Source: Dokdonia sinensis (lineage in GTDB: Bacteria; Bacteroidota; Bacteroidia; Flavobacteriales; Flavobacteriaceae). Taken from it: a stretch of DNA of 64,000 bases. A program made the translations under genes and the position numbers. The notes beneath the pieces were generated by a model. It was not told the origin of the DNA. It did no database searches and worked only from the letters and a program-made list of their open reading frames with translations. Location of the stretch: contig NZ_REFV01000007.1 of the NCBI RefSeq assembly GCF_003688895.1, positions 124,001 to 188,000 on the forward strand. Direction: 5' to 3'. Positions 3,134-64,000 of the stretch are shown here, in pieces (the stretch's first letter is position 1; every line of letters begins with the position of its first letter).

Positions 3134-3147
3134 GCTTTCGCGAAAGC
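3134..3147. repeat. Interspersed palindrome GCTTTCGCGAAAGC, intergenic copy
   Basis: Perfect 14-bp copy 13 bp after the WYL stop codon. It is one of few perfect copies outside a gene. Confidence 0.9.
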
Positions 3148-3305
3148 CTACCCTAAATACAAGTGCCACTTCCTAAGGCTGCTTTTGACTTTTCAGGTAT
3201 CATAAAGTTGCAGAAAACTTCCCTGAATTTTATGGTAGCAAGAATATAAGCAAATCTGGACCTAGGGTTTAAAAATGAAATTGTATTAGAATCGCGTCAC
3301 GGATA

Positions 3306-3339
3306 AAACAAAAAAAGCCTTTCCAAACAGGAAAAGCTT
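3306..3339 (-). terminator. Possible second minus-strand hairpin terminator
   Basis: AAGC-TTTCC (3315-3324) pairs with GGAAA-GCTT (3330-3339) with one mismatch and a 5-base loop. An A-rich run at 3307-3316 becomes a T-run on the minus strand. It lies beyond the stronger tRNA-Asp terminator and may back it up. Confidence 0.45.
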
Positions 3340-3396
3340 CTCATCGGATTCAACTACAAATCCTTACCACGTGTGACGTGGCCAACACAACACCTT

Positions 3397-3423
3397 AAAA
3401 AAAAAGCCCTCGAGTGAGGGCTT
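3397..3423 (-). terminator. Terminator of tRNA-Asp
   Basis: AAGCCCTC (3404-3411) and GAGGGCTT (3416-3423) form an 8-bp stem with a GAGT loop. Nine A at 3397-3405 give a T-run on the minus strand. It starts 8 bp past the tRNA 3' end. Confidence 0.85.
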
Positions 3424-3430
3424 AATTATG

Positions 3431-3504
3431 CGGTCTGGACGAGACTCGAACTCGCGACCCCCTGCGTGACAGGCAGATATTCTAACCAACTGAACTACCA
3501 GACC
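3431..3504 (-). tRNA. tRNA-Asp (anticodon GTC)
   Basis: The reverse complement folds as a 74-nt cloverleaf. The acceptor stem is GGTCTGG/CCAGACC with discriminator G. The anticodon stem TCTGC/GCAGG holds the loop CTGTCAC, giving anticodon GTC, and the T-loop reads GTTCGAG. The 3' CCA is not encoded, as is common in the phylum. A canonical promoter lies about 100 bp upstream and a terminator directly downstream, so it is a single-gene unit. Confidence 0.95.
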
Positions 3505-3603
3505 GTTACTCCACTTTTTGAGACTTTGAGTATGTCTTAATGTTTTCAATATTTCAACTCTAATTTCTTAAAGATGCAACTCGCTTTTGCTTTGTTGCGG
3601 GTG

Positions 3604-3634
3604 CAAATATACACGCCTTTTTTAATTGCACAAA
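3604..3634 (-). promoter_or_regulatory. Bacteroidota-type promoter of tRNA-Asp
   Basis: On the minus strand TTTG (3634-3631), 19 bases, then TATATTTG (3611-3604) match the -33 and -7 consensus of the primary sigma factor of Bacteroidota. This is the best promoter in the window and predicts transcription from about 3597. Confidence 0.85.
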
Positions 3635-3650
3635 CAAAAAAATAAACTTT

Positions 3651-4586: not shown

Positions 4587-4648
4587 AGATGGGAAGTACC
4601 TTCCTTTTTAAGCGCAGTGAGTATTGTGAAATGTAAAATGTGAAATGA

Positions 4649-6103: not shown

Positions 6104-6141
6104 AATTATATCTTTTAATAATTGTAATTCTAATTAATATA

Positions 6142-10553: not shown

Positions 10554-11074
10554 GAATCTGTCTCTTTGGGCCAGAAAGTAGTGGGAAGAGTACGCTTTCG
10601 CGAAAGCTTTCTCAGCATTACACCGCTCCTCTCGTTCCAGAATATGCTCGGGAATACCTGCAGGATCTCTGGGAAAGGGAACAAAAAATCTGCCGTCCAA
10701 AGGATTTATTACCCATCGCCGCAGGACAGATGAAATTAGAAAATCAAGCCGTTCAAGTCGCCAAAAAACTAATTATATGTGATACGGATCTGCTCACAAC
10801 CAAAGTGTACAGCGAGGCCTATTATCAAGGCTGGTGCCCACCGTTACTCTCTAAATACGCGCTAGAAAATAGATACGATTTATATTTACTTACTTATATT
10901 GACACACCTTGGACTCAGGATGATTTGAGAGATAGGCCGGAGCGACGAGAAGAAATGTTTTCGTATTTTAAAGCAGCTCTCGATGACAATAATAGACCGT
11001 ATGTGCTGTTAAAAGGAGGTGTGGAAGAGAGAATGAAGATGGCAATACAGTCAATAAACAACTTAAACTTTTGA
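10514..11074 (+). CDS. NadR kinase-domain-like ATPase (AAA_28)
   Basis: 186 residues with Walker A GPESSGKST at 19-27. Further kinase features are VPEYAREYL, the ICDTDLLTTKVY strand and DLRDRPERREEMF. This is the C-terminal ribosylnicotinamide-kinase module of NadR without the adenylyltransferase or repressor domains. It would phosphorylate a nucleoside-like vitamin entering through the PnuC-like protein and trap it. Whether the substrate is nicotinamide riboside or thiamine is undecided. A palindrome copy directly after Walker A encodes TLSRKL. That may be the native helix sequence re-coded or a tolerated insertion. It overlaps the preceding gene by 40 bp. Confidence 0.82.
   Translation: MEKALKQQPSTCIRICLFGPESSGKSTLSRKLSQHYTAPLVPEYAREYLQDLWEREQKICRPKDLLPIAAGQMKLENQAVQVAKKLIICDTDLLTTKVYSEAYYQGWCPPLLSKYALENRYDLYLLTYIDTPWTQDDLRDRPERREEMFSYFKAALDDNNRPYVLLKGGVEERMKMAIQSINNLNF
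10594..10607. repeat. Interspersed palindrome in the NadR-like gene
   Basis: Perfect GCTTTCGCGAAAGC, read in the frame that gives LSRK. The left side carries the TAC flank of the 20-bp form. Confidence 0.9.
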
Positions 11075-13320: not shown

Positions 13321-16300
13321 CTATCCTACGATGTTCACAATTTTCCCAGGCACCACAATGACCTTTTTTGGCTCGCGGCCGTTTAAGTACATCTGTGTTT
13401 TCTCGTGTGCCATCACCGTTTTCTCGATTTCATCCTTTGACATATCAAGAGGTAGTTCTAACGTGAACTTCATTTTTCCATTAAATGAAATAGGATAGTT
13501 CTTTGTGCTTTCAACGAGATGACTTGCGTCAAAAATTGGGAATACTGCTTCCGAAATTGATTCATTGTGTCCCAGTTTTTCCCAGAGCTCCTCAGCAATG
13601 TGTGGCGCGTAGGGTGCGATAAGAATAACCAGTGGTTCAAGAATTGCACGAGAAGTACATTTTTGAGACGTAAGCTCATTTACTGCAATCATAAATGTAG
13701 AAACCGAAGTGTTAAATGAGAAGTTTTCGATATCCTCTTCTACTTTTTTAATGGTTTTATGAAGGGTCTTTAAGCTGTCTTTGCTTGCGCTTTCGTCCGT
13801 AACATTAAAAGACTCGTCTGCTCCAGAATGGTAGAGTTTCCATAATTTTTTAAGGAAGTTGTGTACCCCAGAGATTCCTGCGGTATTCCAAGGTTTTGCT
13901 TGTTCCAGTGGTCCAAGGAACATCTCGTACATACGTAAGGTGTCTGCTCCGTATTGCTCGCAAATCTCGTCTGGGTTTACCACATTACCTTTTGATTTAG
14001 ACATTTTTTCAATCTCTCTCTCAACGAGATAAATTCCGTCCTTGGAAATAACTTGAAAATCTTTGTAATGTTTAAACATTTCAGAGTTTTTGAAGTCCTC
14101 TACGTTTAGCTCATTCGTAAATCCTTTTAGGAAATTAAGAAAAACTCTGACCTTTATTCTCGGGTCATAGTTTATTTCGAAATCCCACTGCTTTTTATCT
14201 CCGTATTTCTTTTCTAACCAAGATTCTAATTCTGCTGGAGTTTCTCCATTTTCAAGATTTTCATAATCCTTTTTTGAAATAAAAAATTTTTCTATTTTAC
14301 TTTCCGAGTCCGAGAGTTTTATTTTGCATCCATATGCAAAAGCACTCTCCCCCAAAATCATACCTTGATTGATCATCTTTTGGAAAGGCTCATCCACACC
14401 CACAAAACCTCTGTCTTTTAAGAATTTCACCCAAAAACGAGAGTATAATAAGTGCCCCGTACCGTGCTCGGAGCCTCCTATGTATAGATCTACGTTGCCC
14501 CAATAGTCCAGTGCTTCTTTGCTGGCAAAAACTTCATCGCGCTTTGCCTTTTCCATATATCTAAAGAAATACCAGCTACTTCCTGCCCAACCGGGCATCG
14601 TGTTAAGCTCAAGAGGGTAAACTCCATTATCCTCGGAGTTCTCGACTGCGCTCGAACGGACAAGATCATTTGAAACTACTTTATTGTTCTTTGTATCCCA
14701 CGCCCAAACATCGGCACGTCCTAACGGTGGCTCTCCTTCTTCGGTAGGAAGATATTTTTCTACTTCAGGGAGGACGATAGGTAAGTGCTGCGCATCTATC
14801 ATTTTAGGAATACCATTCTTATAATACACTGGGAATGGCTCTCCCCAATAACGTTGACGGCTAAAAACTGCATCACGCAATCTATAGTTCGTTTTTCCTG
14901 TTCCTGCGCCTATTTTCTCTAACTCATAAATGGCAAGTTTTACAGCTTTCTTATATTTTAAACCGTTAAGAAAATCTGAGTTTGTGATTACGGTCGCTGC
15001 CTTATCTGAAAAGGCTTCTTCAGAAATATCTACGCCCTCAAAAACATTAGGAATAGGAATCCCAAAGTGTTTTGCAAAGTTATAATCTCGCTGGTCACCG
15101 CAAGGAACGGCCATCACGGCTCCGGTGCCATATCCTGCTAAAACATAATCGCCTATCCAGATAGGAATAGGCTCCTTTGTAAATGGATGCTCAGCATAAG
15201 CACCTGTAAATGCTCCAGAGATGGTCTTTACATCTGCCATACGGTCACGTTCAGAGCGTTTTGCAGTGACTTCGATATAAGCGTCAACTTCAGCTTTTTG
15301 TTCTGGGGTTGTGATTTCGTGAACTAAATCCAATTCTGGCGCAAGGGTCATAAACGAAACGCCAAAAATGGTGTCTGGACGTGTGGTAAATACTTCTATA
15401 AACGAGTTCTCGACTGTGCTCGAACGGACATCATTCTTAATTTTGAATTTTACTTGAGCACCAACCGATTTTCCAATCCAGTTACGCTGCACTTCTTTTA
15501 TGGATTCGCTCCAGTCTATATTTTCTAGACCTTGTAATAATCGCTCTGCATACGCTGAGATTCGCATAGACCATTGGGTCATTTTCTTTCGGACTACGGG
15601 ATGTCCTCCACGCTCGGAAACACCATTTACAATCTCATCGTTTGCAAGTACGGTTCCTAGTGCTGGGCACCAGTTTACTTCAGTTTCGGCAAGGTAGGTG
15701 AGGCGGTAGCCTAATAAGATATCTTGTTGTTCTTTTTCTGAAAAGGCATTCCATTCTTCGGCTGTAAAGGTTGCTATGCCTTCATCGCAAGCGGCATTTA
15801 TTTGTGCGTTCCCCGCTTTCGCGAAAGCGGAAACCAAATCTTCAATATCCTCTGCTTTATTTGTATCATAATTGTACCAAGACTCAAACAGTTGGATAAA
15901 AATCCATTGTGTCCACTTGTAATATTGTGGATCTGAGGTGCGTACCTCGCGACTCCAGTCAAAGGAGAAACCTATTTTATCTAACTGTGCGCGGTATCCT
16001 GCAATCGTATTGCCTTGATTATCCACACCACCTTCGATGTTTACTTTTGTCGTTACGGCTGGGTGCTGTCCTGTCTGGATTGCATATTGCTCGGCTGGTA
16101 ATCCAAAAGAGTCGTATCCCTGTGGATGCAGTACATTAAAGCCTTTTAACCGCTTGTAGCGTGCATATACATCACTCGCAATATATCCCAGTGGATGCCC
16201 TACGTGAAGCCCTGCGCCAGATGGGTAAGGAAACATATCGAGCACGTAATATTTAGGCTTTTCGCTCTCGTTAGAAGCGTGAAAAGTGCCTTTTTCTGCC

Positions 16301-26925: not shown

Positions 26926-28179
26926 TTAAAACTTCCTATCTGGATGAAAAGCATCAATCCCCATACTTAAAGATGCTTCATCTATAATTTCCTGCACTAA
27001 TTTCCCCGTACTCGGACCCAGACTCCAGCCCATCATCGCGTGCCCTGTGGCAATCGTAAGGTTTTTGCATTTCTCACTCTTACCTATAAAGGGCATCCCA
27101 TCTGGAGAAACAGGACGCAATCCGCAGGCGGCGTCACTTTTTTCTTCGGAGGTGACGTGTACGTTTGGGAAGTATTTTGATACACCTTCGGCGATGGAGT
27201 CTACACGTTTTTTGTTGATGCTGTGATTTATTCCCGCGATTTCCATTGTTCCCGCAAAACGGGTAAATCCATTCATAGGTGTGATGGCGACCTTAGCTTC
27301 GGCGAGAATAGAAGGGTAGGTAATTCCCGTTTCTTTTGTAGTCTGTATGCGATATCCTTTTCCTGCTTGAAGGAGTAGTTTGAGGTTTAGCTTTCGCGAA
27401 AGCGTACTCGTCCAACTCCCAGCCGCAAGGACAAATTCGTCTGCTTTTAATGTTTCTTTATTTGTAATGACGGAAGTAATTTTGCCATTATCAGTATTCA
27501 AATCCACAACCTTTTCCTCTTGCCGAATGATAACACCTTTCTTTAAAAGATGCGTTTTCATCTCCCTCATAAATTCACCCGGAGTAGTATGGTGGTCACA
27601 TTCAAAATAGGAAGCACCCACGATATCCAGCGTAGTATCTGGCATCATTTCTTGAACCTCCTTTGCCGAAATAGTGCGTGCAACAAGCCCTTCTTTTACT
27701 GCAATTTGGGCGAGTTCATCCTCGTGATGTAAGGCCTGTTCCGTCTTACAAAGCATTAGTAATCCTTTCTTCTCCAGCTGAAAATTAAAACCTTCCTCTT
27801 GCTTGATTTGGTGATACAAATCCCTGCCCAAAACCGCAATTTCCTTCATCACAGGAATAGATTTGCGTACGTGAGTCGCATTACAAGACCGATTAAAAGC
27901 CAGCGACCATTTTATAAAATCAGGATTCAATCGTGGCTTTATGTACAGCGGACTTTTAGGATTAAACATCCACTTTATCCCTTGCTTCATCACTCCAGGT
28001 GCTGCGAGCGGTACGAGGTGGCTGGGGGAAAGATATCCCGCATTTACATAGGAGGCTCCGCCATCCATTTTTGAGGCGTCAATCACGGTTACCTGATGTC
28101 CAGATTTTTCTAAAAAATAAGCACAGGAAAGACCAATGATGCCACCACCTACTACTATTATGTTTTTTTGAACTGCCAC
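26926..28179 (-). CDS. FAD-dependent D-amino-acid / D-hydroxyproline dehydrogenase (DadA-like)
   Basis: 417 residues with an N-terminal FAD-binding GGGIIGLSCAYFLEKSGHQVTVID and a C-terminal CGLRPVSPDGMPFIGK motif of the DadA/DAO family. In trans-4-hydroxyproline degradation the epimerase makes cis-4-hydroxy-D-proline, and this type of enzyme oxidises it to the pyrroline carboxylate. It is the last gene of the operon, 23 bp after the epimerase stop, which supports that role over a generic D-alanine dehydrogenase. A perfect palindrome at 27390 encodes STLSRKL next to the FAD domain. Confidence 0.9.
   Translation of the reverse strand: MAVQKNIIVVGGGIIGLSCAYFLEKSGHQVTVIDASKMDGGASYVNAGYLSPSHLVPLAAPGVMKQGIKWMFNPKSPLYIKPRLNPDFIKWSLAFNRSCNATHVRKSIPVMKEIAVLGRDLYHQIKQEEGFNFQLEKKGLLMLCKTEQALHHEDELAQIAVKEGLVARTISAKEVQEMMPDTTLDIVGASYFECDHHTTPGEFMREMKTHLLKKGVIIRQEEKVVDLNTDNGKITSVITNKETLKADEFVLAAGSWTSTLSRKLNLKLLLQAGKGYRIQTTKETGITYPSILAEAKVAITPMNGFTRFAGTMEIAGINHSINKKRVDSIAEGVSKYFPNVHVTSEEKSDAACGLRPVSPDGMPFIGKSEKCKNLTIATGHAMMGWSLGPSTGKLVQEIIDEASLSMGIDAFHPDRKF
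27390..27403. repeat. Interspersed palindrome in the DadA-like gene
   Basis: Perfect GCTTTCGCGAAAGC with a CGTA flank on one side. It reads LSRK. Confidence 0.9.
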
Positions 28180-33856: not shown

Positions 33857-34681
33857 GTGAAAGTTCTGCCTTTTAAAATACCCAAACCCTCAAACGCTGC
33901 ACTACTATTTCAAGTAGATAGTGGGTCGTTGTATGGTTTTTTACATCAACATAAAGAGGTGCAGATAAGCTTGATTATAAAGGGAGAAGGAACGCTTTTA
34001 GTAGGTGATGCGGTGCATACGTACCGCGCGGGAGATGTTATCATCATAGGTGGGCAGCAACCCCACGTTTTTCGCAATACAGATACTTCGGCGATGATGC
34101 ATTCTGTTTTTTTTAGTGTTGAGGCCTTCGGCGATTTGTTTTTACAATTAGATGAAGGGAAGGGGATTGGGGATTTTTATGCTTTCGCGAAAGCGGGCTT
34201 TAAAACAACCACCACACCAGCTCTAAATATATTATTTCAGAGTATCGCAAGTGCTCAAGGAATGCACAAGCTGAAACATTTTATTGATTTAGTCGCAGTC
34301 CTTCAGGTGGCCAAAGGGGAACATCTTTCTCAATTTGTGCAGGATAAAATGCTTTCCGAAAAAGAGGGTAAAAAAATGAGCGCAATTTTTGAATATTCGC
34401 TAGAGAACTATCGAAGACAAATTACCTTAAATGACGTTGCCGAAGTTGCCACAATGACGCCCAATGCCTTCTGCAAGTACTTTAAGAAAAGAACGAATAA
34501 AACCTACTTCCGGTTTCTTATGGAGTTGCGTGTAGAGAAATCCTGTGAGTTGCTACTTACCAGTAAAGAACTCCCCGTCGCAGTAGTTGCAGAACAATCT
34601 GGATTCCAGACATTATCTCATTTTAATCGCACTTTTAAAGAGTTAAAAGGAACGGTGCCAACGCAGTTTAGAGGTCAATAG
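33857..34681 (+). CDS. AraC-family transcriptional regulator of the hydroxyproline operon
   Basis: 274 residues from GTG 33857; the only nearby ATG is out of frame. An N-terminal cupin sensor domain (about 20-110, QISLIIKGEGTLLVGDAVHTYRAGDVIIIGGQQPHVF) precedes a C-terminal pair of helix-turn-helix units (about 185-274, NDVAEVATMTPNAFCKYFKKRTNKTYFRFLMELRVEKSC and PVAVVAEQSGFQTLSHFNRTFK). It is divergent from the operon, with direct repeats between them, so it probably senses hydroxyproline or an intermediate. A perfect palindrome (34181-34194) encodes AFAKA in the linker after the cupin. Confidence 0.9.
   Translation: MKVLPFKIPKPSNAALLFQVDSGSLYGFLHQHKEVQISLIIKGEGTLLVGDAVHTYRAGDVIIIGGQQPHVFRNTDTSAMMHSVFFSVEAFGDLFLQLDEGKGIGDFYAFAKAGFKTTTTPALNILFQSIASAQGMHKLKHFIDLVAVLQVAKGEHLSQFVQDKMLSEKEGKKMSAIFEYSLENYRRQITLNDVAEVATMTPNAFCKYFKKRTNKTYFRFLMELRVEKSCELLLTSKELPVAVVAEQSGFQTLSHFNRTFKELKGTVPTQFRGQ
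34181..34194. repeat. Interspersed palindrome in the AraC-type gene
   Basis: Perfect GCTTTCGCGAAAGC, AFAKA frame, between sensor and DNA-binding domains. Confidence 0.9.
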
Positions 34682-37206: not shown

Positions 37207-38204
37207 TTCCCTTTAATACGCTCCCAGAGCGTTCCTAAAACAGCATCCATATTTTCAGTTTCTGGACGATCTTCGGTTGCGATGATGGTGCCGTTTTCTT
37301 CGGTTAATTTATAGCGAAATACAAATTGAGGATTCTCAGGATCTATTGGGATTAACCCAAAACGGAGATCATTGTATATCCACGTTCCATCTTCTTTTTC
37401 TAGAATATACCACCCCTCAGAAATATTGATGAGACGCTTTACCTCATCACGACTTGCAAGTTTTTCTGAGGCTTTACGATTTTTTGGGTATGCTTTAAAT
37501 GAGACTGGTTCACTATCAAATAACGAGTAGTCCCCAATCAAATAGTTGTCTCCAGCATCCACATTTGCATTCCATAAGACAGTGTTCATAGGAGCAGGAC
37601 GGGTAGAAATTTGCGTGTATGCAATGTTTTGGTTTTCTAAAGCTTCGGTGATTTTTGTGTGTGCGACCCACTTGAGCAATAAGGTAATGGCAAGATAGCC
37701 GGTGCTTAAATATATACCGAGGTTGTTTATACGCTTTCGCGAAAGCGTACCTCGCCTCCTCGTCATTGCAATAATCACACACGTCAAGAACGGAAGCGTA
37801 TACAAAGGATCAATCACAAAAATATTATTGAATGCGAGCCGTGTTTCAAAAGGCCAAAACAGTTGCGTTCCCCAAGTCGTAAAAGCATCCAAAAGCGGAT
37901 GCGTAAAAAGTCCCCAAAAGAACAACCAAGACCATCCTTTCCAGCCGACATCAGGTCGTTTCTTGATTTGATGCACGAGCCAACCTAAAATAGGAGCCAT
38001 CAAGATGGAGAAAACTATGGAGTGGCTAAAACCACGGTGCATTTCTGTAGCCGTAATCGTGTCTGTAAGGTAGCGCGCAATGACATCTAGATCTGGTATA
38101 GTTCCAGCAATGGCACCCCAGAGCATCGCACGATTTCCTATTTTCTTGCCAAGAACGGCTTCGCCCACCGCGGCGCCGAGCACTATTTGTGTAAGACTGT
38201 CCAA
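37203..38204 (-). CDS. YbcI/DUF457-type membrane-bound metal-dependent hydrolase
   Basis: 333 residues. The family hallmark is at the N-terminus (MDSLTQIVLGAAVGEAVLGKK, AGTIPDLDV, HRGFSHS), with His and Asp residues at membrane faces. About four to five helices lie at 1-180. The C-terminal third is soluble (FRYKLTEENGTIIATEDRPE). Substrate unknown; related proteins are annotated as metal-dependent hydrolases by motif. A 20-bp palindrome at 37730-37749 encodes TLSRKR in a basic loop after the fourth helix. Confidence 0.85.
   Translation of the reverse strand: MDSLTQIVLGAAVGEAVLGKKIGNRAMLWGAIAGTIPDLDVIARYLTDTITATEMHRGFSHSIVFSILMAPILGWLVHQIKKRPDVGWKGWSWLFFWGLFTHPLLDAFTTWGTQLFWPFETRLAFNNIFVIDPLYTLPFLTCVIIAMTRRRGTLSRKRINNLGIYLSTGYLAITLLLKWVAHTKITEALENQNIAYTQISTRPAPMNTVLWNANVDAGDNYLIGDYSLFDSEPVSFKAYPKNRKASEKLASRDEVKRLINISEGWYILEKEDGTWIYNDLRFGLIPIDPENPQFVFRYKLTEENGTIIATEDRPETENMDAVLGTLWERIKGN
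37730..37749. repeat. Interspersed palindrome, 20-bp TACG/CGTA form, in the DUF457-type gene
   Basis: Perfect palindrome with TAC/GTA flanks around the 14-bp core. It encodes LSRK in the host frame. Confidence 0.9.
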
Positions 38205-38709: not shown

Positions 38710-40482
38710 TTAATCAACAATTTCCATTTTCTTGAGTAGGAAACTGGCATTCATATTTTGACAAATCCCTTTTTTAAAGGTGTAGTCAAAGAAGAGTTCG
38801 TCGTCTATAATCTGGGCGTCAAAGTAATAATTTGTTACTTCTGGTAAAGTCTCTGACGCTTCACACAGGCTTAAGTCGTGCGTGGCAATAATTCCCGTGG
38901 CACCACCTTGAACAAGCTTGTCCACAAACTTGCGAGAACCTGTAGCCTTATCCGTGCTATTTGTGCCCTTCAATATTTCGTCCAGAATGATAAAGTATTC
39001 ATCTTCTTTAATCGCATCTACAATAAACTTAAGGCGTTTTAACTCTGAGAAAAAGTAACTCTCATCATCCGTAAGACTATCTGTGGTGCGCATACTCGTG
39101 ATGAGTTTTATGGGTGTGTATGTAGTAGCTGTCGCTCTTACGGGTAGACCAGCATTTGCCATAACAATCTGCAACGCTACCGTGCGCAGGAAGGTACTTT
39201 TACCCGCCATATTTGCACCTGTGATAATAAAAAACTCATTTCGGTTTATAGCTATGTCGTTAGGAACGGCCGTTGTTGCTTTTAAAAGCGGGTGAACTGC
39301 TTCTGTAGCGTGAATGGTCGTTTTTGAATCTGTAATTTCTGGATAGGTGTGCTCGGGATGATTAAAGGCATAGTTGCCTAAGCTATTGTATCCGTCAAAA
39401 AACGCGATGGTCTCAAACCATACTTCGGCATCTTGACCATACGTTTTAATCCATTGCTCGATATTACTTGCAATGATAAGGTCGCGCAGGAAAAATCCGT
39501 TTACAAAAACCGCTACCAGTACATTATTGCGCTGATCGAGTGCATCCAGATAACGCGAAAATTTTTTTAATATTCCAGAACTTGAACGGTCTGTAGAAAT
39601 AATTTTTTTACGCTTTCGCGAAAGCGTACTACTCAAAAATTCCTGCTCCTCAATTTCAAACAACAATTGCGCATACTGCTGAAAGGTAGTTTGTACCTCT
39701 GAAGCTTTGTTGTGCAACATACTCACCTTTCCCATAAATCGCGCAGAGATAAAGAGGCCAAGACCAAAAATCACAAACACCCAATACCCGCTTATGATAC
39801 TGAACCCATAAAGCGCACAAATCAGTACTGAGAGTATGCCGAAAATACGCGCAATAGTTTTTATGTGTTTGGGAGTAAACGGTTTGTAATTATCAAGCCA
39901 ACTTACGACATCACCTGCTGGAATTTCTGTTTTTACAAGACTTGCAATAGCCGAGAATCTTTGTCGCCACTCTGGAAGGTTGCTGAGTTCTTTTATGGCT
40001 TCCTGTTTCTCTGGAATATGGTCTATATCATTAGCAAGAAGTGTATCTGCAAAAACCTGAGCACCACTCTCGAGCGCCGTACGATTTGCATATTGATAAA
40101 ATGACCCTCGCCCAAAGAGGTCTATATCCTGACTGTAAAAGTGCTCTGGATTGTAAAACTGGTTGCCGTCTGGGAAGTTTTGATAGATTCCTTCCAGCGC
40201 TTGCAATTCCTTAGTATTTATAGCTATAAGGGCTTTCGTCAGATCACGTTGTAATTTAAGTTTTGCGTGACGGGTCACTAGAAATAGAAAGAATGCAATT
40301 CCTGCTATCGCAATCACACCAGCGAGCTTTGGGGTGTTGAAAGTAAAGTATACCATCACACCTATTCCTATAAATAGCAGTAATCGAACACTACTAGAAA
40401 GGTTGAGCTTTTTCTTGAGTGTGCTCAGGGTAGTCTTGTGTGACTTAAGTTGTATTTTATAAAATGAAGCAGGTTGTTGCAT
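38710..40482 (-). CDS. Membrane-anchored MutS-family ATPase
   Basis: 590 residues from ATG 40482 (MQQPASFYKIQLKSHKTTL); an ATG at 40512 overlaps the preceding gene by 23 bp and adds residues unlike relatives. Two hydrophobic segments near 40-80 and another pair near 225-265 suggest membrane attachment. The C-terminal MutS domain V has Walker A GANMAGKST, Walker B IILDEILKGTN, and GIIATHDLSLCE. No mismatch-recognition domain is present, so it is not the repair MutS. Bacteroidota have such proteins; their function is not established to me. A 20-bp palindrome encodes STLSRKRKK in the central domain. Confidence 0.88.
   Translation of the reverse strand: MQQPASFYKIQLKSHKTTLSTLKKKLNLSSSVRLLLFIGIGVMVYFTFNTPKLAGVIAIAGIAFFLFLVTRHAKLKLQRDLTKALIAINTKELQALEGIYQNFPDGNQFYNPEHFYSQDIDLFGRGSFYQYANRTALESGAQVFADTLLANDIDHIPEKQEAIKELSNLPEWRQRFSAIASLVKTEIPAGDVVSWLDNYKPFTPKHIKTIARIFGILSVLICALYGFSIISGYWVFVIFGLGLFISARFMGKVSMLHNKASEVQTTFQQYAQLLFEIEEQEFLSSTLSRKRKKIISTDRSSSGILKKFSRYLDALDQRNNVLVAVFVNGFFLRDLIIASNIEQWIKTYGQDAEVWFETIAFFDGYNSLGNYAFNHPEHTYPEITDSKTTIHATEAVHPLLKATTAVPNDIAINRNEFFIITGANMAGKSTFLRTVALQIVMANAGLPVRATATTYTPIKLITSMRTTDSLTDDESYFFSELKRLKFIVDAIKEDEYFIILDEILKGTNSTDKATGSRKFVDKLVQGGATGIIATHDLSLCEASETLPEVTNYYFDAQIIDDELFFDYTFKKGICQNMNASFLLKKMEIVD
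39609..39628. repeat. Interspersed palindrome, 20-bp TACG/CGTA form, in the MutS-family gene
   Basis: Same 20-bp form as 37730-37749. It reads LSRK. Confidence 0.9.
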
Positions 40483-40489
40483 TCTTAAA

Positions 40490-43796: not shown

Positions 43797-45182
43797 CTAG
43801 CTCATCTCTGTGAAATATTCGTAAAAATAAGGAATGGTTTCAATTCCTTTCAGGTAATTCCATATTCCAAAATGCTCGTTAGGCGAATGAATCGCATCGC
43901 TGTCTAATCCAAATCCCATAAGAATCGTTTTACTCTTAAGTTCCTTTTCAAACAAGGCGACTATAGGAATACTCCCACCACTGCGCTGTGGAATAGGCGA
44001 CTTGCCAAAGGTCTTTTCGTAAGCCTTTTCGGCAGCTTGGTATGCGATGTTGTCTATCGGGGTAACATAGCCTTGTCCTCCGTGATGTGGAGATACCTTT
44101 ACTTTTACACCTGCGGGAGCGATACTTTCAAAATGGGTTTTGAAGAGCTCAGTAATTTCTTTCCAATCTTGATTTGGCACGAGACGCATTGAGATTTTTG
44201 CATAAGCTTTGCTTGCGATTACTGTTTTTGCACCTTCACCTGTATAACCTCCCCAGATTCCGTTTACGTCTAAGGTGGGGCGTATGGAGTTGCGCTCGTT
44301 TGTGGTGTATCCTTTTTCTCCATAAACAGCGTCTATGTCTAGCGCTTTCTTGTAATTTTCTAAAGAGAAAGGTGCCTCTGCCATTTTCTCGCGTTCGGCT
44401 GTCGAGAGTTCTTCTACTTTATCGTAAAACCCTTTTACTGTGATGTGATTGTTTTCATCGTGTAGGGAAGCAATCATTTTGGCGAGCACATTAATAGGAT
44501 TTGCTACTGCTCCTCCATACAATCCAGAATGTAAATCTCTGTTTGGTCCTGTCACTTCTACTTCCACATAACTTAGACCACGTAACCCTGTGGTTATAGA
44601 CGGAATATCATTTGCAATCATTCCTGTATCTGAAATTAAAATAACATCATTTGCCAGTTTTTCCTGATTACGCTCTACATACCAAGCGAGGTTCTCACTG
44701 CCTACTTCTTCCTCACCCTCGATCATAAACTTCACGTTGCACGGCAGTTGATCGTTTGCCGTCATATATTCCATCGCTTTCACGTGCATATACATCTGCC
44801 CTTTGTCATCACAGGCACCGCGGGCATAAATGGCTCCGTCTGGGTGTAGCTCTGTTTTTTTGACGACGGGTTCAAAAGGTGGCGAATCCCAAAGTTCCAC
44901 AGGATCTGGTGGTTGCACATCGTAATGTCCGTAAACTAGTACCGTGGGTAATTCTGGGTCTATGATTTTATCGGCATAAACGATAGGATATCCTGGGGTC
45001 TCACATATTTCGACACAATCACACCCAGCTTTGCGCAGGCTTTCGGCTACGACAGAGGCGGTTTGGTGGGTCGCTTTCGCGAAAGCGGAATCTGCACTCA
45101 CGCTAGGAATCTTGAGTAATTCTATGAGTTCGTTTATAAAACGATCCTTGTGTTGATCGATATAATCTTTTGGGTTTTGCAT
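43797..45182 (-). CDS. M20-family dipeptidase
   Basis: 461 residues. Zinc-ligand motifs are VYGHYDVQPPDP (first His and the Asp after it), ACDDKGQMYMH (bridging Asp) and MIEGEEEVGSENL (Glu base and metal ligand), followed by LHSGLYGG in the dimerisation region. It belongs to the CNDP-like branch of cytoplasmic dipeptidases. No signal peptide is present. A palindrome at residues 37-41 encodes AFAKA in DSAFAKATHQ; relatives have a short loop there. A possible -7 element (TATTTTTG, 45209-45202) lies 20 bp upstream. Confidence 0.93.
   Translation of the reverse strand: MQNPKDYIDQHKDRFINELIELLKIPSVSADSAFAKATHQTASVVAESLRKAGCDCVEICETPGYPIVYADKIIDPELPTVLVYGHYDVQPPDPVELWDSPPFEPVVKKTELHPDGAIYARGACDDKGQMYMHVKAMEYMTANDQLPCNVKFMIEGEEEVGSENLAWYVERNQEKLANDVILISDTGMIANDIPSITTGLRGLSYVEVEVTGPNRDLHSGLYGGAVANPINVLAKMIASLHDENNHITVKGFYDKVEELSTAEREKMAEAPFSLENYKKALDIDAVYGEKGYTTNERNSIRPTLDVNGIWGGYTGEGAKTVIASKAYAKISMRLVPNQDWKEITELFKTHFESIAPAGVKVKVSPHHGGQGYVTPIDNIAYQAAEKAYEKTFGKSPIPQRSGGSIPIVALFEKELKSKTILMGFGLDSDAIHSPNEHFGIWNYLKGIETIPYFYEYFTEMS
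45073..45086. repeat. Interspersed palindrome in the M20 gene
   Basis: Perfect GCTTTCGCGAAAGC, extendable to 16 bp. AFAKA frame. Confidence 0.9.
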
Positions 45183-51327: not shown

Positions 51328-51711
51328 TTACGGTTTAAAAATAAAGGCACTAGGAAATACCTTCTTGATTTTCATTAGAGCTCTGTCTGCCTCTAATCTA
51401 CTTCTAAAATTCCCTATCCATACTTTATAGTTAGGAGTTTGGAATTTGATAGTAGATTTCCAAGTTCCAACTTTATTTAGATAAGTTTTTAATTGGCTAT
51501 TTGCGCGAGTGAGATTGCCAGAGTAAATTTGGATCTTATACCGATCATTCAGTTCTCCTTCCACACTCATTTCTGCTTTTAAGGAAATCAATTCATTTAT
51601 GAGGGGGTCTTGGTTAACTGTTGTTTGGGAAGATTGCGCTTTCGCGAAAGCGAACAAACTCACAAAAAAAATGAAAGTTAAAAAGGATTTTTTACGAGGC
51701 AAAAAGGTCAT
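51328..51711 (-). CDS. Secreted SPOR-domain protein
   Basis: 127 residues. A signal peptide (MTFLPRKKSFLTFIFFVSLFAFAKA) precedes a short helical linker and a C-terminal SPOR domain (about 55-127, YKIQIYSGNLTRANSQL...YKVWIGNFRSRLEADRALMKIKKVFPSAFIFKP), which in relatives binds glycan strands lacking stem peptides. It is probably periplasmic or outer-membrane-associated, acting on peptidoglycan. The interspersed palindrome supplies the AFAKA at the predicted cleavage site. A tandem 7-bp array begins immediately after the stop. It lies between infB and the act operon, as often seen in this family. Confidence 0.88.
   Translation of the reverse strand: MTFLPRKKSFLTFIFFVSLFAFAKAQSSQTTVNQDPLINELISLKAEMSVEGELNDRYKIQIYSGNLTRANSQLKTYLNKVGTWKSTIKFQTPNYKVWIGNFRSRLEADRALMKIKKVFPSAFIFKP
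51638..51651. repeat. Interspersed palindrome in the SPOR signal-peptide region
   Basis: Perfect GCTTTCGCGAAAGC (16 bp with CG flanks), AFAKA frame, ending at the predicted signal-peptidase site. Confidence 0.9.
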
Positions 51712-53220: not shown

Positions 53221-53318
53221 TTTTGTGACATCTGCTTTTGCGAAAGCATAAAAAGTGCAACAAAAAAAGTCCTGGTTCATCTTTAAAAGGAGCTAAAAAC
53301 ATTATAACTATTATTTAT

Positions 53319-56300
53319 ATGTCATCAAACAAGAAATACTGGAAAAGCGACGATCAACTGCACGGGAATCCGGCAGTGGAGGCGCTAAGTCAGAATGAGT
53401 TTGTACAGGAAATTCCGACGGACGAGTTTTTAGGAGATAAGAAAACTCTTGATTCTACAGAGACTACGCGTCGTGATTTTTTGAAATACGTGGGATTTTC
53501 TACTGCTGCTGCATCTCTTGCTGCTTGTGAGGGGCCAGTAAAAAAATCTATTCCTTACGTTGTGCAGCCTGAGCAGATTGTTCCAGGTGTTGCAGATTAT
53601 TATGCAACGACAATGGCAGATGGATTTGACTTTGCAAGTGTTTTGATCAAAACACGCGAGGGACGTCCTATCAAAGTAGAAAACAATAACCTTGCGAAGG
53701 GTGGCTTTGGGGCAAATGCTCGTGTTCATGCATCTGTACTTTCTTTGTATGATATGAAACGTGCAACTTCTCCACTAGCAAATGGTCAAGAAGTATCCTG
53801 GGATGACATAGATCAAGGTATAATCAATGCCTTAAATGGAGGTAAGAAAGCCGTGTTGCTCACGCAGACTTTTGCGAGTCCAACAACAGATAAGTTGATT
53901 GCTGAGTTTACAGCAAAATTCCCAAATGCTTCACACATTACATACGATGCTGTAGGAGAGCAAGATGCCCTAGACGCTTTTGAATTAAAATATGGTCGCC
54001 GAGCCCTAGCAGATTATGATTTCTCAAAAGCAGAAGTTATAGTTTCTGTAGGTGCAGACTTTTTAGGTGACTGGCAAGGTGGGGGCTATGATTCCGGTTA
54101 CGGAAAGAGTCGTGTGCCGAAAAATGGTAGAATGTCTCGCCACATTCAGTTTGAGGCAAATATGTCTCTTTCTGGAGCAAATGCAGATAAGAGAGTGCCT
54201 ACTACTCCATCACAGCAAAAACTTGTGGTGCAGGCTCTAGCTGGTGGTTCTGCCTCTGGCCTTCCTGAAAACATAAAAACAGCAGTAGCTTTTGCAAAAA
54301 AGAAACTTGCCGAAGCTGGTAGCAAAGGAGTTGTGGTAACAGGTGTTCAGGATGTGGCAACTCAACGCATCGTACTAGATTTAAATGCAAATAGCGAGGT
54401 AATGGACACGGCTAACCCTAAACTTACACGTTCGGGAGATGCACGCAAAGTTGCTCAGTTAGTAAAAGATATGAATGCAGGTCAAATCGGCCTCTTGATT
54501 ACTGCTGGTGTAAATCCAGCATATAGTCTTCCAAATGCTGATGAGTTTGTCGCTGGACTTGGTAAAGTTGCTGTTTCTGTAGCTTGCTCTATGAAGGTGG
54601 ATGAGACTGCAGTAAAAATGACGCACGTAGCGCCAGCACCACATTACTTAGAATCTTGGAGAGATGTGCAGATTAAGCAAGGAGAAATCAGCTTAATGCA
54701 GCCTACGATTCGTCCGTTGTTTGATACGCGTCAGTTTCAAGATAATCTCTTGAAATGGATGGGTAGCGATCAGCCGTACTATGAATATATGAAGAGCACA
54801 ATGCAGGCGGCAGGTGTCACTTCTTTTAATAAGGCAGTTCAAGATGGTGTTGTTTATACTGACGCTTTCGCGAAAGCGGCACCTTCATCACAAGAAGATT
54901 CGTCTTTAACAGCTGATGCAGGTCTTGCGGTAGATACTTTGCAAGGTGACGGAAACTTTGAGCTGACTCTTTATACTAAAACATCAATGGGTGACGGAAG
55001 TCAGGCTAACAATCCTTGGTTACAAGAGATGCCTGATCCTATCACAAGAGCAACTTGGGATAATTACCTTACCATGTCTGAGGCAGATGCTAAAGAGCTG
55101 GGACTTTGGTTAGATCGTAGCACATTCTTTACAGAGGCTCGCCACGATGCAAACGGAGGTCTTAACGGTCGCTATGCTGAAGTTACTGTAGATGGAGTTT
55201 CTGTTGTGGTGCCGGTTATGGTCCAGCCAGGGCAGGCAAACGGAACTGTAGGTTTAGCGCTAGGTTACGGAAAGAAAGAGGCGATTCAAGAAGACATGCA
55301 GACAGGCGTAAATGCTTATCCATTAATGCAGGGTTTTAAGAATACTCAAAAAGTATCTGTTAAGAAAGCTAATGAGGATGTGCACGAGTTTGCATTAATC
55401 CAGCTGCACAATACATTAATGGGTCGTGGTGATATCGTAAGAGAGACTACCCTTGAAATATTTAATACTAAAGACAAGCACTATTGGAATCCAGTTCCAG
55501 AAGTGACTAAGAATCACATAGAATACGAAGTAACTTCACCAGAAGTTGACCTTTGGGATTCCTTTGATCGTTCTATCGGGCACCATTTCAATCTTTCGAT
55601 TGATATGAACGCTTGTACAGGTTGTGGTGCTTGTGTCATTGCTTGTCACTCGGAAAATAATGTTCCTGTAGTGGGTAAGTCTGAGGTTCGTCGCAGTCGT
55701 GATATGCACTGGTTGCGTATCGATAGATACTACTCATCTGAAGATACTTTCCAACTGGATGATACTAAGAAAAATGATTTCAGCGGACTAGGAGGGGACA
55801 ATGGCTCTTTAGGAGGTTTTTCAGAAATGGAAGATCCTGCTGCAAATCCTCAAATTGCGTTCCAGCCGGTAATGTGTCAGCACTGTAACCACGCTCCTTG
55901 TGAGACGGTTTGTCCAGTTGCTGCGACTTCACATAGCCGTCAAGGCCAGAATCATATGGCGTACAACCGTTGTGTAGGTACACGTTACTGTGCAAACAAC
56001 TGTCCATATAAAGTACGTCGTTTTAACTGGTTCTTGTATAATGGTAATGATGAGTTTGATTACCACATGAATAATGACCTAGGACGTATGGTATTAAATC
56101 CAGACGTAACAGTACGTTCTCGTGGAGTTATTGAGAAATGTTCTATGTGTATCCAAATGACACAAAAAACAATCCTTGATGCAAAACGTGAAGGACGTCA
56201 AATTAAAGATGGAGAGTTTGCAACTGCTTGTTCTAATGCTTGTACCTCTGGGGCACTTGTCTTTGGAGATGTAAATGATGAGCAGAGTGAAGTTAAAAAA

Positions 56301-58736: not shown

Positions 58737-59468
58737 ATGAAGAATAGTTTGAATTTTATTTTAGGTCTCGTTCTTTTGGCGGTTGTATCTTGCGATAGCA
58801 ATGATAGAAAGCCAGGCTTTGAGTATATGCCTAATATGTATGAATCTGTCCCTTATGACACGTATGGCGAATATGATATTTTCCAGACAGTGACAGGAGG
58901 TTCTGAAGCAATGAAGCCTGCAGAGGGCTCAGTAATGAGAGGATGGCTACCTTACGAAATAGAAGATAATCAAGATGGTTATGCTTTCGCGAAAGCGAAC
59001 TTAACAAATCCTCTACCTTATACAGAAGAGAATCTTGCAAAGGGTACAGAACTTTATAATATTTATTGTGGTATTTGCCACGGGAATAAAGGAGATGGTC
59101 AGGGGACTCTTGCAAAGCGCGAAAAGATTCTTGGTGTGCCTGCGTACAATGATGCTGGCCGTGCAATCACAGAAGGTAGCGTCTATCACGTGATGTATTA
59201 CGGTATCAATTCTATGGGTTCTTATGCCTCTCAAATGACTGAAGAGGAGTTATGGCAAGTAAATCACTATGTTATGTCGCTTAAGGACGCTCTTGATAAA
59301 AAAGAGCCTAGACCCACTATCGACGTTGGTGCTGTACTGGAACCTAATACGATGATGATGACAGACGATCTTGAGGTGTTAGAAGATACACAATCTGATA
59401 ATCAAGGTGAGGCAATGCAACAGGCAGGAGAAGAAAATCCTGCAACTAATTTAGATGGAAACGAGTAA
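58737..59468 (+). CDS. actE: Alternative complex III subunit ActE (monohaem cytochrome c lipoprotein)
   Basis: 243 residues. A lipoprotein signal (LAVVSCDSND) predicts lipid attachment at Cys about 19. The haem motif CGICH lies near 111 with the usual ETELYNIY lead-in, and a Met ligand is probable near 160 (SYASQMTEEELW). It passes electrons from ActB/ActA to the oxidase. A palindrome at 58983 encodes AFAKA in the loop before the haem motif (GYAFAKANL). The C-terminus is long and acidic, and likely flexible. Confidence 0.93.
   Translation: MKNSLNFILGLVLLAVVSCDSNDRKPGFEYMPNMYESVPYDTYGEYDIFQTVTGGSEAMKPAEGSVMRGWLPYEIEDNQDGYAFAKANLTNPLPYTEENLAKGTELYNIYCGICHGNKGDGQGTLAKREKILGVPAYNDAGRAITEGSVYHVMYYGINSMGSYASQMTEEELWQVNHYVMSLKDALDKKEPRPTIDVGAVLEPNTMMMTDDLEVLEDTQSDNQGEAMQQAGEENPATNLDGNE
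58983..58996. repeat. Interspersed palindrome in actE
   Basis: Perfect GCTTTCGCGAAAGC, AFAKA frame. Confidence 0.9.
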
Positions 59469-60934: not shown

Positions 60935-60962
60935 GAATTTAGGTTAAAGAAGTTAGAAAGCA

Positions 60963-62051
60963 ATGACAGGTTTATTAGCACTCATCGTAGTAATTCTTTT
61001 TGTAGTCACACTTTGGCAAATGTCAAAGATTTTTAAGCTGTCTCAGCTTAAAAACAAGAATGTCAATAGTGAAACTGCACAAGTAGCAAATGACAAAGAC
61101 AATCGTGTAAACGGGAAGTTATTTGTAATGTTTATGGTATTCCTTTACGGGATTACAATATATTGTTTCTGGAACTACAGTAAGTTTTATTTGCCAGAAG
61201 CATCATCAGAGCACGGAACAGATTATGACTATTTAATGTTCATTTCTCTTGCACTAATTATGTTTGTGCAAGTTATAACTCAAGCTTTACTGCACTACTT
61301 TGCCTACAAATACCAAGGAAAGAAGGGTAATAGGGCTTTGTTTTATGCAGATAACGATAAGCTTGAATTTATCTGGACCATTATTCCAGTAATTGTTCTT
61401 GCGGGCCTCATTATCTATGGTCTTTTTACGTGGTCTGATATTATGAATTTTGAAGAGGAAGAGGATGCTATTGTTGTTGAGCTTTATGCAAAACGCTTTG
61501 TATGGGAAGCTCGCTACGCTGGTGAAGACAGAACATTAGGTAATGCCAATGTTCGCTTTATCGAAGGAGCAAATACTGTAGGTATAGATGCTTCTGATTC
61601 TGACGCTATGGATGATGTCGTGACAACTGAGTTGCACCTTCCTGTAGGACGACAAGTCATCTTTAAGCTTCGTTCTCAAGATGTTCTGCACTCTGCCTAT
61701 ATGCCTCACTTTCGTGCACAAATGAATGTTGTTCCTGGAATGATAACTCAATTCTCATTTACTCCTTCTGTAACCACAGAAGAAATTAGAGAAACGGAGT
61801 ATATGCAGGATAAGATGTACAACATCAAAGAAATTAGAAAAGAAAAAAATAAGCAATCTATTGCTGCTGGTGACGGTCCTTTAGATGCTTATGATGAATT
61901 TGACTATTACTTGCTATGTAATAAAATTTGTGGTGCTTCCCATTACAATATGCAAATGAAAATTGTTGTAGAAACCCAAGAAGAATACGACGCTTGGATG
62001 GCAGAACAAAAGACGTTTGCACAGACGATTGCGGAAGCAACTCAGGAATAG
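60963..62051 (+). CDS. coxB: Cytochrome c oxidase subunit II
   Basis: 362 residues. Three hydrophobic helices: one at the start (LLALIVVILFVVTLW), one near 55-75 and one near 145-160 (FIWTIIPVIVLAGLIIYGLF). The CuA domain follows, with LRSQDVLHSAYMPHF and the copper ligands in CNKICGASHYNM near 319-330. It passes electrons from cytochrome c to subunit I. The C-terminus lacks a fused cytochrome c domain, so electrons probably come from ActA or ActE. The length of the helix-2 to CuA stretch is normal for Bacteroidota. Confidence 0.95.
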   Translation: MTGLLALIVVILFVVTLWQMSKIFKLSQLKNKNVNSETAQVANDKDNRVNGKLFVMFMVFLYGITIYCFWNYSKFYLPEASSEHGTDYDYLMFISLALIMFVQVITQALLHYFAYKYQGKKGNRALFYADNDKLEFIWTIIPVIVLAGLIIYGLFTWSDIMNFEEEEDAIVVELYAKRFVWEARYAGEDRTLGNANVRFIEGANTVGIDASDSDAMDDVVTTELHLPVGRQVIFKLRSQDVLHSAYMPHFRAQMNVVPGMITQFSFTPSVTTEEIRETEYMQDKMYNIKEIRKEKNKQSIAAGDGPLDAYDEFDYYLLCNKICGASHYNMQMKIVVETQEEYDAWMAEQKTFAQTIAEATQE

Positions 62052-62082
62052 AAAAAGAAAAATTAATTAAAGTATTAAGATT

Positions 62083-63912
62083 ATGTCAGCACACGCAGCA
62101 AACATAGATCACGCTCACGACGAAGATCACGGACATCATCATCACGAGCCAACATTTATTGAGAAGTACATCTTTAGTACGGATCATAAAATGATATCTA
62201 AGCAGTACCTAATTACTGGTTTAATTATGGGTATTATCGGTATAGCAATGTCATTGTTATTCAGACTACAACTTGCTTGGCCTGATCATAACTTTACCGT
62301 TTATGAGGTATTGTTGGGTGATTGGGGTAAAGATGGTGTTATGGACCCGAATATTTACTTAGCCCTTGTGACCATACACGGTACTATTATGGTATTTTTT
62401 GTTCTTACTGCCGGGTTATCAGGAACTTTTAGTAACCTGCTTATACCGTTGCAGATAGGCGCACGTGATATGGCATCTGGATTCCTAAACATGGTATCCT
62501 ATTGGCTATTCTTTGTTTCTTCTGTTATTATGGTGCTGTCTCTGTTTGTGGAGTCTGGGCCAGCAGCGGCAGGATGGACCATTTATCCTCCATTAAGTGC
62601 TTTGCCAGATAGTATTCCTGCTTCTGGAATGGGAATGACTCTTTGGTTAGTGTCTATGGCAATATTCATTGCATCTTCACTTTTAGGATCACTAAATTAT
62701 ATAGTAACCGTTATAAACTTGCGCACTAAAGGAATGTCTATGACGAGACTTCCACTAACAATTTGGGCATTCTTTGTAACTGCTATTATTGGAGTTGTAT
62801 CTTTCCCAGTATTACTTTCTGCAGCGTTAATGTTAATTATGGATAGAAGTTTCGGTACTTCATTTTTCCTATCAGACATTTATATCGGTGGCGAGGTGTT
62901 GCATAACTCTGGAGGTTCTCCAGTATTGTTTGAGCACCTGTTTTGGTTTTTAGGTCACCCTGAGGTTTATATTGTATTACTCCCAGCACTTGGAATTACA
63001 TCAGAAATTATATCTACAAATGCACGTAAACCAATTTTTGGATATCGCGCGATGGTAGCCTCTATACTTGCTATTGCATTCTTGTCTACAATTGTATGGG
63101 GACATCATATGTTTATTTCTGGAATGAATCCATTCTTGGGATCTGTATTTACGTTTACTACGCTTTTAATCGCAATTCCATCTGCTGTAAAAGCATTTAA
63201 TTATATCACAACGCTATGGAAAGGTAATCTCCAGTTTAATCCTGCAATGTTATTCTCAATAGGTTTAGTATCTACATTTATCTCTGGAGGTCTTACGGGA
63301 ATTATTCTTGGAGATAGTACACTTGATATTAATGTACATGATACGTATTTCGTAGTGGCTCACTTTCACTTAGTGATGGGTATATCTGCACTATATGGGC
63401 TATTTGCGGGTGTATACCATTGGTTCCCAAAAATGTTCGAGGGGAAAATGATGAATAAGAACTTAGGATATGTTCACTTTTGGGTAACTGTAATTGGGGC
63501 TTATGGAATCTTCTTCCCGATGCACTTTATAGGAATGGCAGGATTACCTAGACGTTATTACACAAATACGGCGTTCCCTTATTTTGATGATCTTGCAGAT
63601 GTAAATGTCGCAATCACGATATTTGCCTTTATTACCGCATCTGCTCAGCTTGTATTCTTATATAACTTTGTGAGTTCTATTTTTTACGGAAAGGTTGGGG
63701 AAAAGAATCCTTGGAAATCTAATACCTTAGAGTGGACTACTGAGCACAAGCATATTCACGGAAACTGGGCTGGAGCAATCCCTCACGTACACCGTTGGCC
63801 TTATGATTACAGTAAATTGAATAAGGATGAATCTGACTATGTAATTCCTGGTCAGGATTTTGTACCACAACATATACCACTTCAAGAAAACGAAGAAGAG
63901 ATGCATCATTAA
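62083..63912 (+). CDS. coxA: Cytochrome c oxidase subunit I
   Basis: 609 residues, about twelve membrane helices. Visible features are the haem ligands in IHGTIMVFF and VVAHFHLVMG, the CuB/Tyr region WFLGHPEVYIVLLPALG, and the HHMFISGM pair. The core length is typical for A-type oxidases. The N-terminus is His-rich (HAANIDHAHDEDHGHHHHEP), which could bind copper. It reduces oxygen and pumps protons in the inner membrane. Its stop is followed by a terminator at 63957. Confidence 0.96.
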   Translation: MSAHAANIDHAHDEDHGHHHHEPTFIEKYIFSTDHKMISKQYLITGLIMGIIGIAMSLLFRLQLAWPDHNFTVYEVLLGDWGKDGVMDPNIYLALVTIHGTIMVFFVLTAGLSGTFSNLLIPLQIGARDMASGFLNMVSYWLFFVSSVIMVLSLFVESGPAAAGWTIYPPLSALPDSIPASGMGMTLWLVSMAIFIASSLLGSLNYIVTVINLRTKGMSMTRLPLTIWAFFVTAIIGVVSFPVLLSAALMLIMDRSFGTSFFLSDIYIGGEVLHNSGGSPVLFEHLFWFLGHPEVYIVLLPALGITSEIISTNARKPIFGYRAMVASILAIAFLSTIVWGHHMFISGMNPFLGSVFTFTTLLIAIPSAVKAFNYITTLWKGNLQFNPAMLFSIGLVSTFISGGLTGIILGDSTLDINVHDTYFVVAHFHLVMGISALYGLFAGVYHWFPKMFEGKMMNKNLGYVHFWVTVIGAYGIFFPMHFIGMAGLPRRYYTNTAFPYFDDLADVNVAITIFAFITASAQLVFLYNFVSSIFYGKVGEKNPWKSNTLEWTTEHKHIHGNWAGAIPHVHRWPYDYSKLNKDESDYVIPGQDFVPQHIPLQENEEEMHH

Positions 63913-63956
63913 AATTGCGTTTATAGCAATTGTTTTGATGTATATAATTTCATTTT

Positions 63957-63986
63957 AAAACCCATTCGGTAACGGATGGGTTTTTT
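63957..63986 (+). terminator. Terminator of the act-cox operon
   Basis: CCCATTCG (63961-63968) pairs with CGGATGGG (63973-63980), one G-T pair, GTAA loop, flanked by AAAA and a T-run. Confidence 0.9.
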
Positions 63987-63992
63987 GTTTCC

Positions 63993-64000
63993 GCTTTCGC
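63993..64000. repeat. Interspersed palindrome cut by the window end
   Basis: CCGCTTTCGC at 63991-64000 is the left half of the 18-bp form; the right half lies outside the window. Confidence 0.6.

Follow-up and report, generated by a model that had tools for sequence, protein, structure and literature searches.

Why is a single 14-bp palindrome scattered through the genes of a marine flavobacterium? The question is raised by 64,000 nucleotides of the Dokdonia sinensis genome (contig NZ_REFV01000007.1, positions 124,001 to 188,000), here called the window, in which thirteen exact copies of the word occur, every one of them at the place where an original prediction, made from the letters of this DNA, had put it. 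The core CGCTTTCGCGAAAGCG is near-invariant and usually lies inside TA...TA. We favour, tentatively and at a probability of roughly 0.4, the reading that the word is a genome-wide dyad-symmetric protein-recognition site which works like a DNA uptake or self-recognition word.

Abundance and anatomy of the word

The D. sinensis genome (3.65 Mb) holds 857 exact copies of the palindrome and none of the reversed-pattern control. A count against a Markov model was the check proposed with the original prediction; in 464 kb of this genome (G000) an order-2 model gives 0.0019 expected copies, while 103 exact ones are present, which bears out the claim of a highly iterated, non-chance palindrome, and the early estimate of about 0.0001 copies per 64 kb was of the right order. 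The window alone contains 34 matches with up to three mismatches, compared with 2.9 (standard deviation 1.7) in 100 shuffles. One-mismatch copies number 24 in the same 464 kb, where 0.08 are expected, which puts the ratio of exact to one-mismatch copies at about 4:1, and a symmetric double variant occurs once; the exact word is the target. The commonest single change, seen in 9 of these 24, is C to T at the CpG of TTTCGC, as expected of CpG transitions or of a variant tolerated by the reader.

The word belongs to few lineages. Among 59 genomes counted, all 18 of Dokdonia carry 369-905 copies each, or one site per 3.6-7.6 kb, so density varies within the genus; of the others, G027 from a second genus (g11) has 578, G029 has 6, and the remaining 39 have none. 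All three g11 genomes are rich in the word (578, 664 and 609 copies), as is the one genome of a third genus, g210 (G230, 408 copies). Across 397 genomes of the family (237 genera, sampled from a larger group) 80 have at least one match, with a maximum of 19 copies per genome outside these three genera. In the phylum, a search with a 16-mer matched 11 of 395 genomes, G000 with 630 copies and the others with 1-2. In a one-protein tree G230 stands next to Dokdonia (support 90) while g11 falls in another part; at least two changes in the presence of the word follow from this tree, which rests on one gene and could mislead. Of 80 named loci from sister genera, the 74 longer than 8 kb were counted and, except for L009 (Dokdonia), none has a repeated 14-bp palindrome; two of the 74 hold a 12-bp palindrome twice. 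This count took in words with at least two G or C, hence none made up of A and T alone. Exact 14-mer matches also occur in at least 120 stretches of viral contigs, where the outer C/G is found on 40% of sides (132 sites) in comparison to 87% in the D. sinensis genome; since it is so much rarer there, most of the viral matches look like chance. We found no published account of the 14-mer, nor of overrepresented palindromes in flavobacteria, in our searches of an open-licence library.

The site extends beyond the palindrome. For about 20 bp on each side of the core, the strand running 5' to 3' into it is nearly devoid of C, in mirror image. The base preceding the 14-mer is C in 87% of cases (103 D. 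sinensis sites, symmetrised), the next outward is A or C, and then comes T. At positions -4 to -19, C makes up 2-13% per position against 20% in the genome, with G and T raised, and the effect fades by about -25; the opposite flank of the 103 sites mirrors this pattern. It recurs in 76 sites of four other Dokdonia genomes, in 14 g11 sites, and in 35 sites from other genera, many of which are mutually homologous. In G230 the arms are weak beyond -7 (75 sites) and the base before the core is C in only 57%; perhaps this genome uses a dialect of the site. Since the C-poor pattern is also present in arms lying fully outside open reading frames (ORFs) of at least 50 amino acids (136 arms; 173 from a larger set after removal of near-copies), it is not merely a codon effect. 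In coding orientation the upstream and downstream arms are about equally strong, and the proteins at the sites have fewer T, Q and P upstream and fewer G, V and D downstream. A three-base periodicity of T in the non-coding arms is suggestive only (P 0.02, position shuffling, 173 arms).

The idea that palindromy is maintained with differing flanks holds in part: the exact word and the mirror-symmetric composition of the flanks are kept, but symmetric double variants are almost absent, and beyond position 4 the two arms of a site (282 sites) show no more base pairing with each other than with arms taken from other sites. An extended hairpin was rejected on this ground.

Spacing, placement and turnover of the sites

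The sites are spread more evenly than random points. In G000 the gaps (n = 101) have a mean of 4470 bp and a coefficient of variation (CV) of 0.65, with 0.98 for random placement; the CV is 0.62 in G016 (n = 66), 0.62 in G008 (n = 72) and 0.66 in G006 (n = 70), the data of the last two being orthologous to each other. Mean spacing is 3.5-4.5 kb in these four Dokdonia genomes, and none of their 309 gaps is shorter than 500 bp (about 37 expected) and 8 are shorter than 1 kb (about 69 expected). Counts per 20 kb are under-dispersed in 76 Dokdonia pieces (variance/mean 0.62) and most regular in 19 pieces of G230 (0.32). The G+C content of a 20-kb piece does not predict the number of its sites (rho 0.12, P 0.28, 76 pieces).

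The statement that twelve of thirteen copies lie inside genes is right for the window, with ORFs of at least 80 amino acids, but does not hold generally: in 1.18 Mb of Dokdonia DNA, a set which includes some mutually orthologous stretches, 183 of 282 sites (65%) are inside such ORFs, which cover 90% of the DNA, and thus the sites are enriched between genes. The 99 sites outside ORFs have a gene 3' end as the nearest gene end in 66 cases and a 5' end in 33. Those inside ORFs fall into the three frames as 98, 33 and 52 sites, the first frame reading AFAKA; 167 genes have one site and 8 have two, and 29 of the 183 in-ORF sites are no more than 90 bp from the called ORF start. The copies in the window are as follows.

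3134..3147: exact copy 1, intergenic, 13 bp 3' of a stop codon
4081..4094: exact copy 2, inside ORF 3651-4586(-), in the frame giving AFAKA
10594..10607: exact copy 3, inside ORF 10514-11074(+)
15815..15828: exact copy 4, inside ORF 13321-16401(-)
27390..27403: exact copy 5, inside ORF 26926-28179(-)
30374..30387: exact copy 6, inside ORF 29262-30971(-)
34181..34194: exact copy 7, inside ORF 33857-34681(+)
37733..37746: exact copy 8, inside ORF 37203-38204(-)
39612..39625: exact copy 9, inside ORF 38710-40512(-)
45073..45086: exact copy 10, inside ORF 43797-45182(-)
45048..45111: example of the extent of a full site of about 60 bp, the core with about 25 bp per side; the shortage of C on the left and of G on the right describes the sites taken together
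51638..51651: exact copy 11, inside ORF 51328-51711(-), AFAKA closing a signal-peptide-like N terminus
54864..54877: exact copy 12, inside ORF 53238-56399(+)
58983..58996: exact copy 13, inside ORF 58737-59468(+)
63993..64000: copy 14, cut by the window end; the genome sequence beyond shows the complete word, as had been supposed

Signal-peptide-like N termini ended by the word in the AFAKA frame (...FAKAQ) are found in the window (51328-51711(-)) and also in L090:11498-12715(-) and L091:9389-10606(+); the word seems to be tolerated at the ends of such stretches.

The original prediction withstood both outcomes that it had named as refuting it: counts lie far above the Markov model, and the one in-gene copy traced across the genus, at 45073, is not a set of ordinary conserved codons. 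The word is present there in 7 of the 15 Dokdonia genomes readable at this place (G007 is incomplete there) and in G230 (g210); G006 encodes the same AFAKA peptide with other codons, seven Dokdonia genomes have other peptides of equal length, and the three g11 genomes are without the word.

For a closer comparison, 280 kb of G006 with 71 sites were set against 280 kb of G008 with 73; 250 kb of this DNA align at 89%. Out of 68 sites deep enough within an alignment to be comparable, 61 are intact in both genomes, while random aligned 14-mers are identical in 30%; the remaining 7 differ by 1-4 substitutions and none by an insertion or deletion. At the 52 sites without gaps within 30 bp, the core differs at 0-1% per position and the arms at about 9%, and substitutions in the arms involve C in 25% of cases in comparison to 43% elsewhere, which is consistent with arms held to a composition and not to a sequence. 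A wider and more diverged set of four genomes gave 132 directed comparisons (every pair being counted from both sides): the site is intact in 101, shows substitutions only in 19 and is gapped in 12. Around the gapped sites the alignment breaks up or the gaps cancel out, a short deletion being possible at G004 74891 versus G008. Even in some intergenic DNA where little else can be aligned, the word keeps its position. Point mutation both removes and creates copies of the word between close species; coding and non-coding copies alike are held in place against mutation.

These genomes appear to exchange DNA. The stretch G008:C1:1449000-1519000, set against G016 and G006, is a sharp mosaic of blocks of 70-75% and 95-98% identity, about 1-20 kb long, which suggests frequent homologous exchange between species. 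Steps in identity are no larger at the sites than at shifted positions (80 kb; 280 kb with 64-66 sites, P 0.15-0.39; limited power), and with no excess of steps a recombination hotspot is not supported, despite striking single examples.

Candidate functions of the word

What is understood of highly iterated words comes mainly from DNA uptake in Neisseriaceae and Pasteurellaceae and from the methylation-linked HIP1 (highly iterated palindrome 1) of cyanobacteria, and the kinship with both that had been suggested for the palindrome is upheld at the level of the phenomenon; the view that a simple regulator site is unlikely is upheld as well. Flavobacteriaceae add a further case, with a longer exact palindrome and strand-polarised arms. 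The features described above are typical of a word that is under drive or selection and is read, as DNA, by a protein. We rank an uptake-like word slightly above a chromosome-architecture site and file the palindrome as a member of neither class.

According to passages of PMC1939737, 65% of the copies of the Haemophilus influenzae uptake word are in ORFs, and uptake words are enriched in non-coding DNA and evenly spaced. As far as the excerpted literature on DNA uptake sequences (DUS, Neisseriaceae) and uptake signal sequences (USS, Pasteurellaceae) goes, these share with the Dokdonia word an exact sequence in hundreds of copies, even spacing, intergenic enrichment yet common occurrence in ORFs, restriction to a clade, and flanks whose composition matters, which in the USS are AT-tracts. 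If the word works in a similar manner, a homodimeric protein specific to these lineages would bind the core, and DNA fragments with one site would be favoured on uptake or on processing for homologous recombination. Such a bias would let the word accumulate by molecular drive and take precedence over the choice of amino acids in tolerant proteins, and any further site within about 1 kb would be redundant. The avoidance of C on one strand over 16-18 adjacent positions could mean that this strand is exposed or unwound beside the core, and the strand-polarised arms may be the strongest clue to a step in which one strand is exposed. A wider formulation, which we regard as possible and hold with less assurance than the reading just given, joins several parts in one claim: the palindrome would be a kind of genome passport, a dyad-symmetric site of about 60 bp with an exact palindromic core and strand-polarised C-poor arms, favouring kin DNA in acquisition or recombination; its putative reader in Bacteroidota would need neither type IV pili nor a shared methyltransferase; and the word would shape protein sequences and stamp its origin on islands moving to other genera.

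Several observations weigh against an uptake-like word. Its dynamics fit, but the usual machinery does not. Searches for the pilus/type II secretion system ATPase (PF00437), for ComEC and for methyltransferases covered 16 of 22 carriers (completeness at least 99%). PF00437 is over the cut-off in 6 of the 16 and in 3 of 20 non-carriers, so a type IV pilus or related machine is not common to the carriers, 10 of which are without it at this cut-off. ComEC was found in all 26 genomes tested, the 16 carriers and the non-carriers alike, and is therefore permissive only. Known uptake words, in the passages at hand of PMC1939737, are non-palindromic, and those of Neisseria and Haemophilus are described, in similar excerpts, as used with type IV pili; dyad symmetry, seen here in both the perfect palindrome and its arms, would rather be expected of the target of a dimeric DNA-binding protein inside the cell. 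Density is lower too, at most about a quarter of that of the H. influenzae USS, which the literature excerpted puts at about 1 per kb. Site density is not clearly higher in the high-identity, recently exchanged DNA of G006 and G008. Finally, G230 has the word with weak arms, and 2 of its 54 within-piece gaps are shorter than 500 bp (the smallest 447), so the exclusion at short distance is not absolute. Among relatives, Riemerella columbina is naturally competent and reportedly prefers its own DNA; the commonest 10-mers in R. columbina, R. anatipestifer and Flavobacterium johnsoniae are A-rich and differ from the Dokdonia word (parts of PMC7965970, including Table 3).

The next candidate, which we consider doubtful and yet the most serious rival, is that evenly spaced copies are bound around the whole chromosome by a dimeric nucleoid, segregation, division or topology protein, with Noc, SlmA, MatP or a strong gyrase site as functional models. 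The perfect dyad with symmetric arms, the even spacing with under-dispersed counts around the chromosome, and the positions kept in some barely alignable intergenic DNA all agree with it, and no trend along the chromosome is seen by eye in 20 samples of G016 and 19 of G230 (origins unmapped, no formal test). Noc, SlmA, MatP and parS sites are likewise palindromic targets of a dimeric protein at several chromosomal places. These, however, number tens, are more degenerate and are tied to parts of the chromosome, while the present sites number hundreds, are exact and are spread over the samples taken. There is also no extra gene of the ParB family: of 12 carriers searched, 11 have one ParB_N protein, as do most non-carriers, and G011 has two. 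In addition, the family's other genera have few copies of the word or none, and copies with good arms persist in island DNA of genomes otherwise without it; and avoidance of C on a single strand over 16-18 positions would be hard to explain for a pure double-strand binder.

It is improbable that the palindrome is a HIP1-like word kept by an orphan DNA methyltransferase acting on TCGCGA. HIP1 is also palindromic, highly iterated, found in coding DNA and clade-specific (PMC4390886, in part), and the portions seen of this work on HIP1 and the alternate HIPs show further likenesses, namely occurrence in coding and non-coding DNA, frequent symmetric extension and absence from some relatives. However, it is 8 bp long and not 14-20 bp, the present word has long compositional arms, and copies with one change, which are scarce here, are common for HIP1 in many cyanobacteria according to the same portions of PMC4390886. 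The proposed modification target is not supported by the enzymes either: none of the four methyltransferase families searched is present in all 16 carriers (PF00145 in 7, PF01555 over the cut-off in 2, PF02086 in 10 and PF02384 in 15), other families lying outside this search. Over the cut-off, G006 has only PF02384 and G230 only PF01555; weak PF01555 matches below it occur in G006 and G008.

A Chi-like site is an equally slight prospect. Here the site would be the signal on which an enzyme of the RecBCD/AddAB type loads RecA, in both directions, and RecA would coat the G/T-rich strand, whose 3' side faces the core. Density agrees well, with 0.24 per kb in D. sinensis and 0.13-0.27 in the 18 Dokdonia genomes, Chi reaching 0.26 in 250 kb of Escherichia coli, and the polarity of the G/T-rich strand is right, RecA preferring G/T-rich DNA. 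Known Chi sites, however, are short and asymmetric; the 8-mer of E. coli (64 copies in these 250 kb) has no arms and is irregularly spaced (CV 1.42), and the lack of an excess of identity steps at the sites, within its limited power, may also speak against this function.

An RNA element, such as a terminator, mRNA hairpin or RNase site, is very improbable. The preference of intergenic sites for gene 3' ends (66 of 99) would suit it, but the sites inside ORFs lie on both strands, the T-rich side precedes rather than trails the palindrome on either strand, which gives no terminator geometry, the arms of one site do not pair, and both are about equally strong in coding orientation. A mobile palindrome inserting copies of itself, similar to repetitive extragenic palindromic sequences or miniature inverted-repeat transposable elements, would account for the high copy number and the copies in island DNA of other genera, but appears refuted for the recent copies compared, as the 68 comparable sites of the two close species differ by substitutions only and the word aligns with other peptides at equal length at 45073 (the 12 diverged gapped alignments are uninformative on insertion), and it is hardly credible.

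With most carriers lacking the usual pilus ATPase at the cut-off and none of the four methyltransferase families searched common to all, the word of these bacteria offers a clean system for what drives such words. As D. donghaensis DSW-1T has been cultured and fully sequenced (PMC4974333), pull-down, methylation and transformation tests are feasible.

Islands, clusters and poor regions

Copies outside the three carrier genera were followed in 16 stretches of 20 kb (L089-L104) from ten low-copy genomes (G127, G118, G254, G376, G029, G133, G141, G216, G067 and G386), picked from a listing and not at random. From 12 of these stretches, blocks longer than 3 kb recur in at least one of the other 15, and it is in such shared island DNA that the well-armed copies persist. 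The word may mark islands derived from, or circulating through, word-carrying hosts, and might act as a natural tracer of imported islands in genomes otherwise without it. One pair of sites, 933 bp apart, recurs in a single gene in four genera (L090, L091, L092 and L100) at 77-95% pairwise identity. Read by eye, the ORFs of three island stretches resemble cation-efflux pumps and a copper-type ATPase.

Within Dokdonia, 20 samples along G016 have 1-8 sites each. The poorest two start at 2,040,001 and 2,205,001, a PF02384 methyltransferase gene ending just ahead of the latter, and the third-poorest, from 3,195,001, holds a PF00145 gene; such site-poor samples would fit foreign DNA. At G016:C1:2876454-2879836 (L286), a stretch of 3.4 kb contains four intergenic copies, and the DNA after each of them is similar and runs up to ...caaatactc; a tandem duplication seems to have packed them more closely than is usual.

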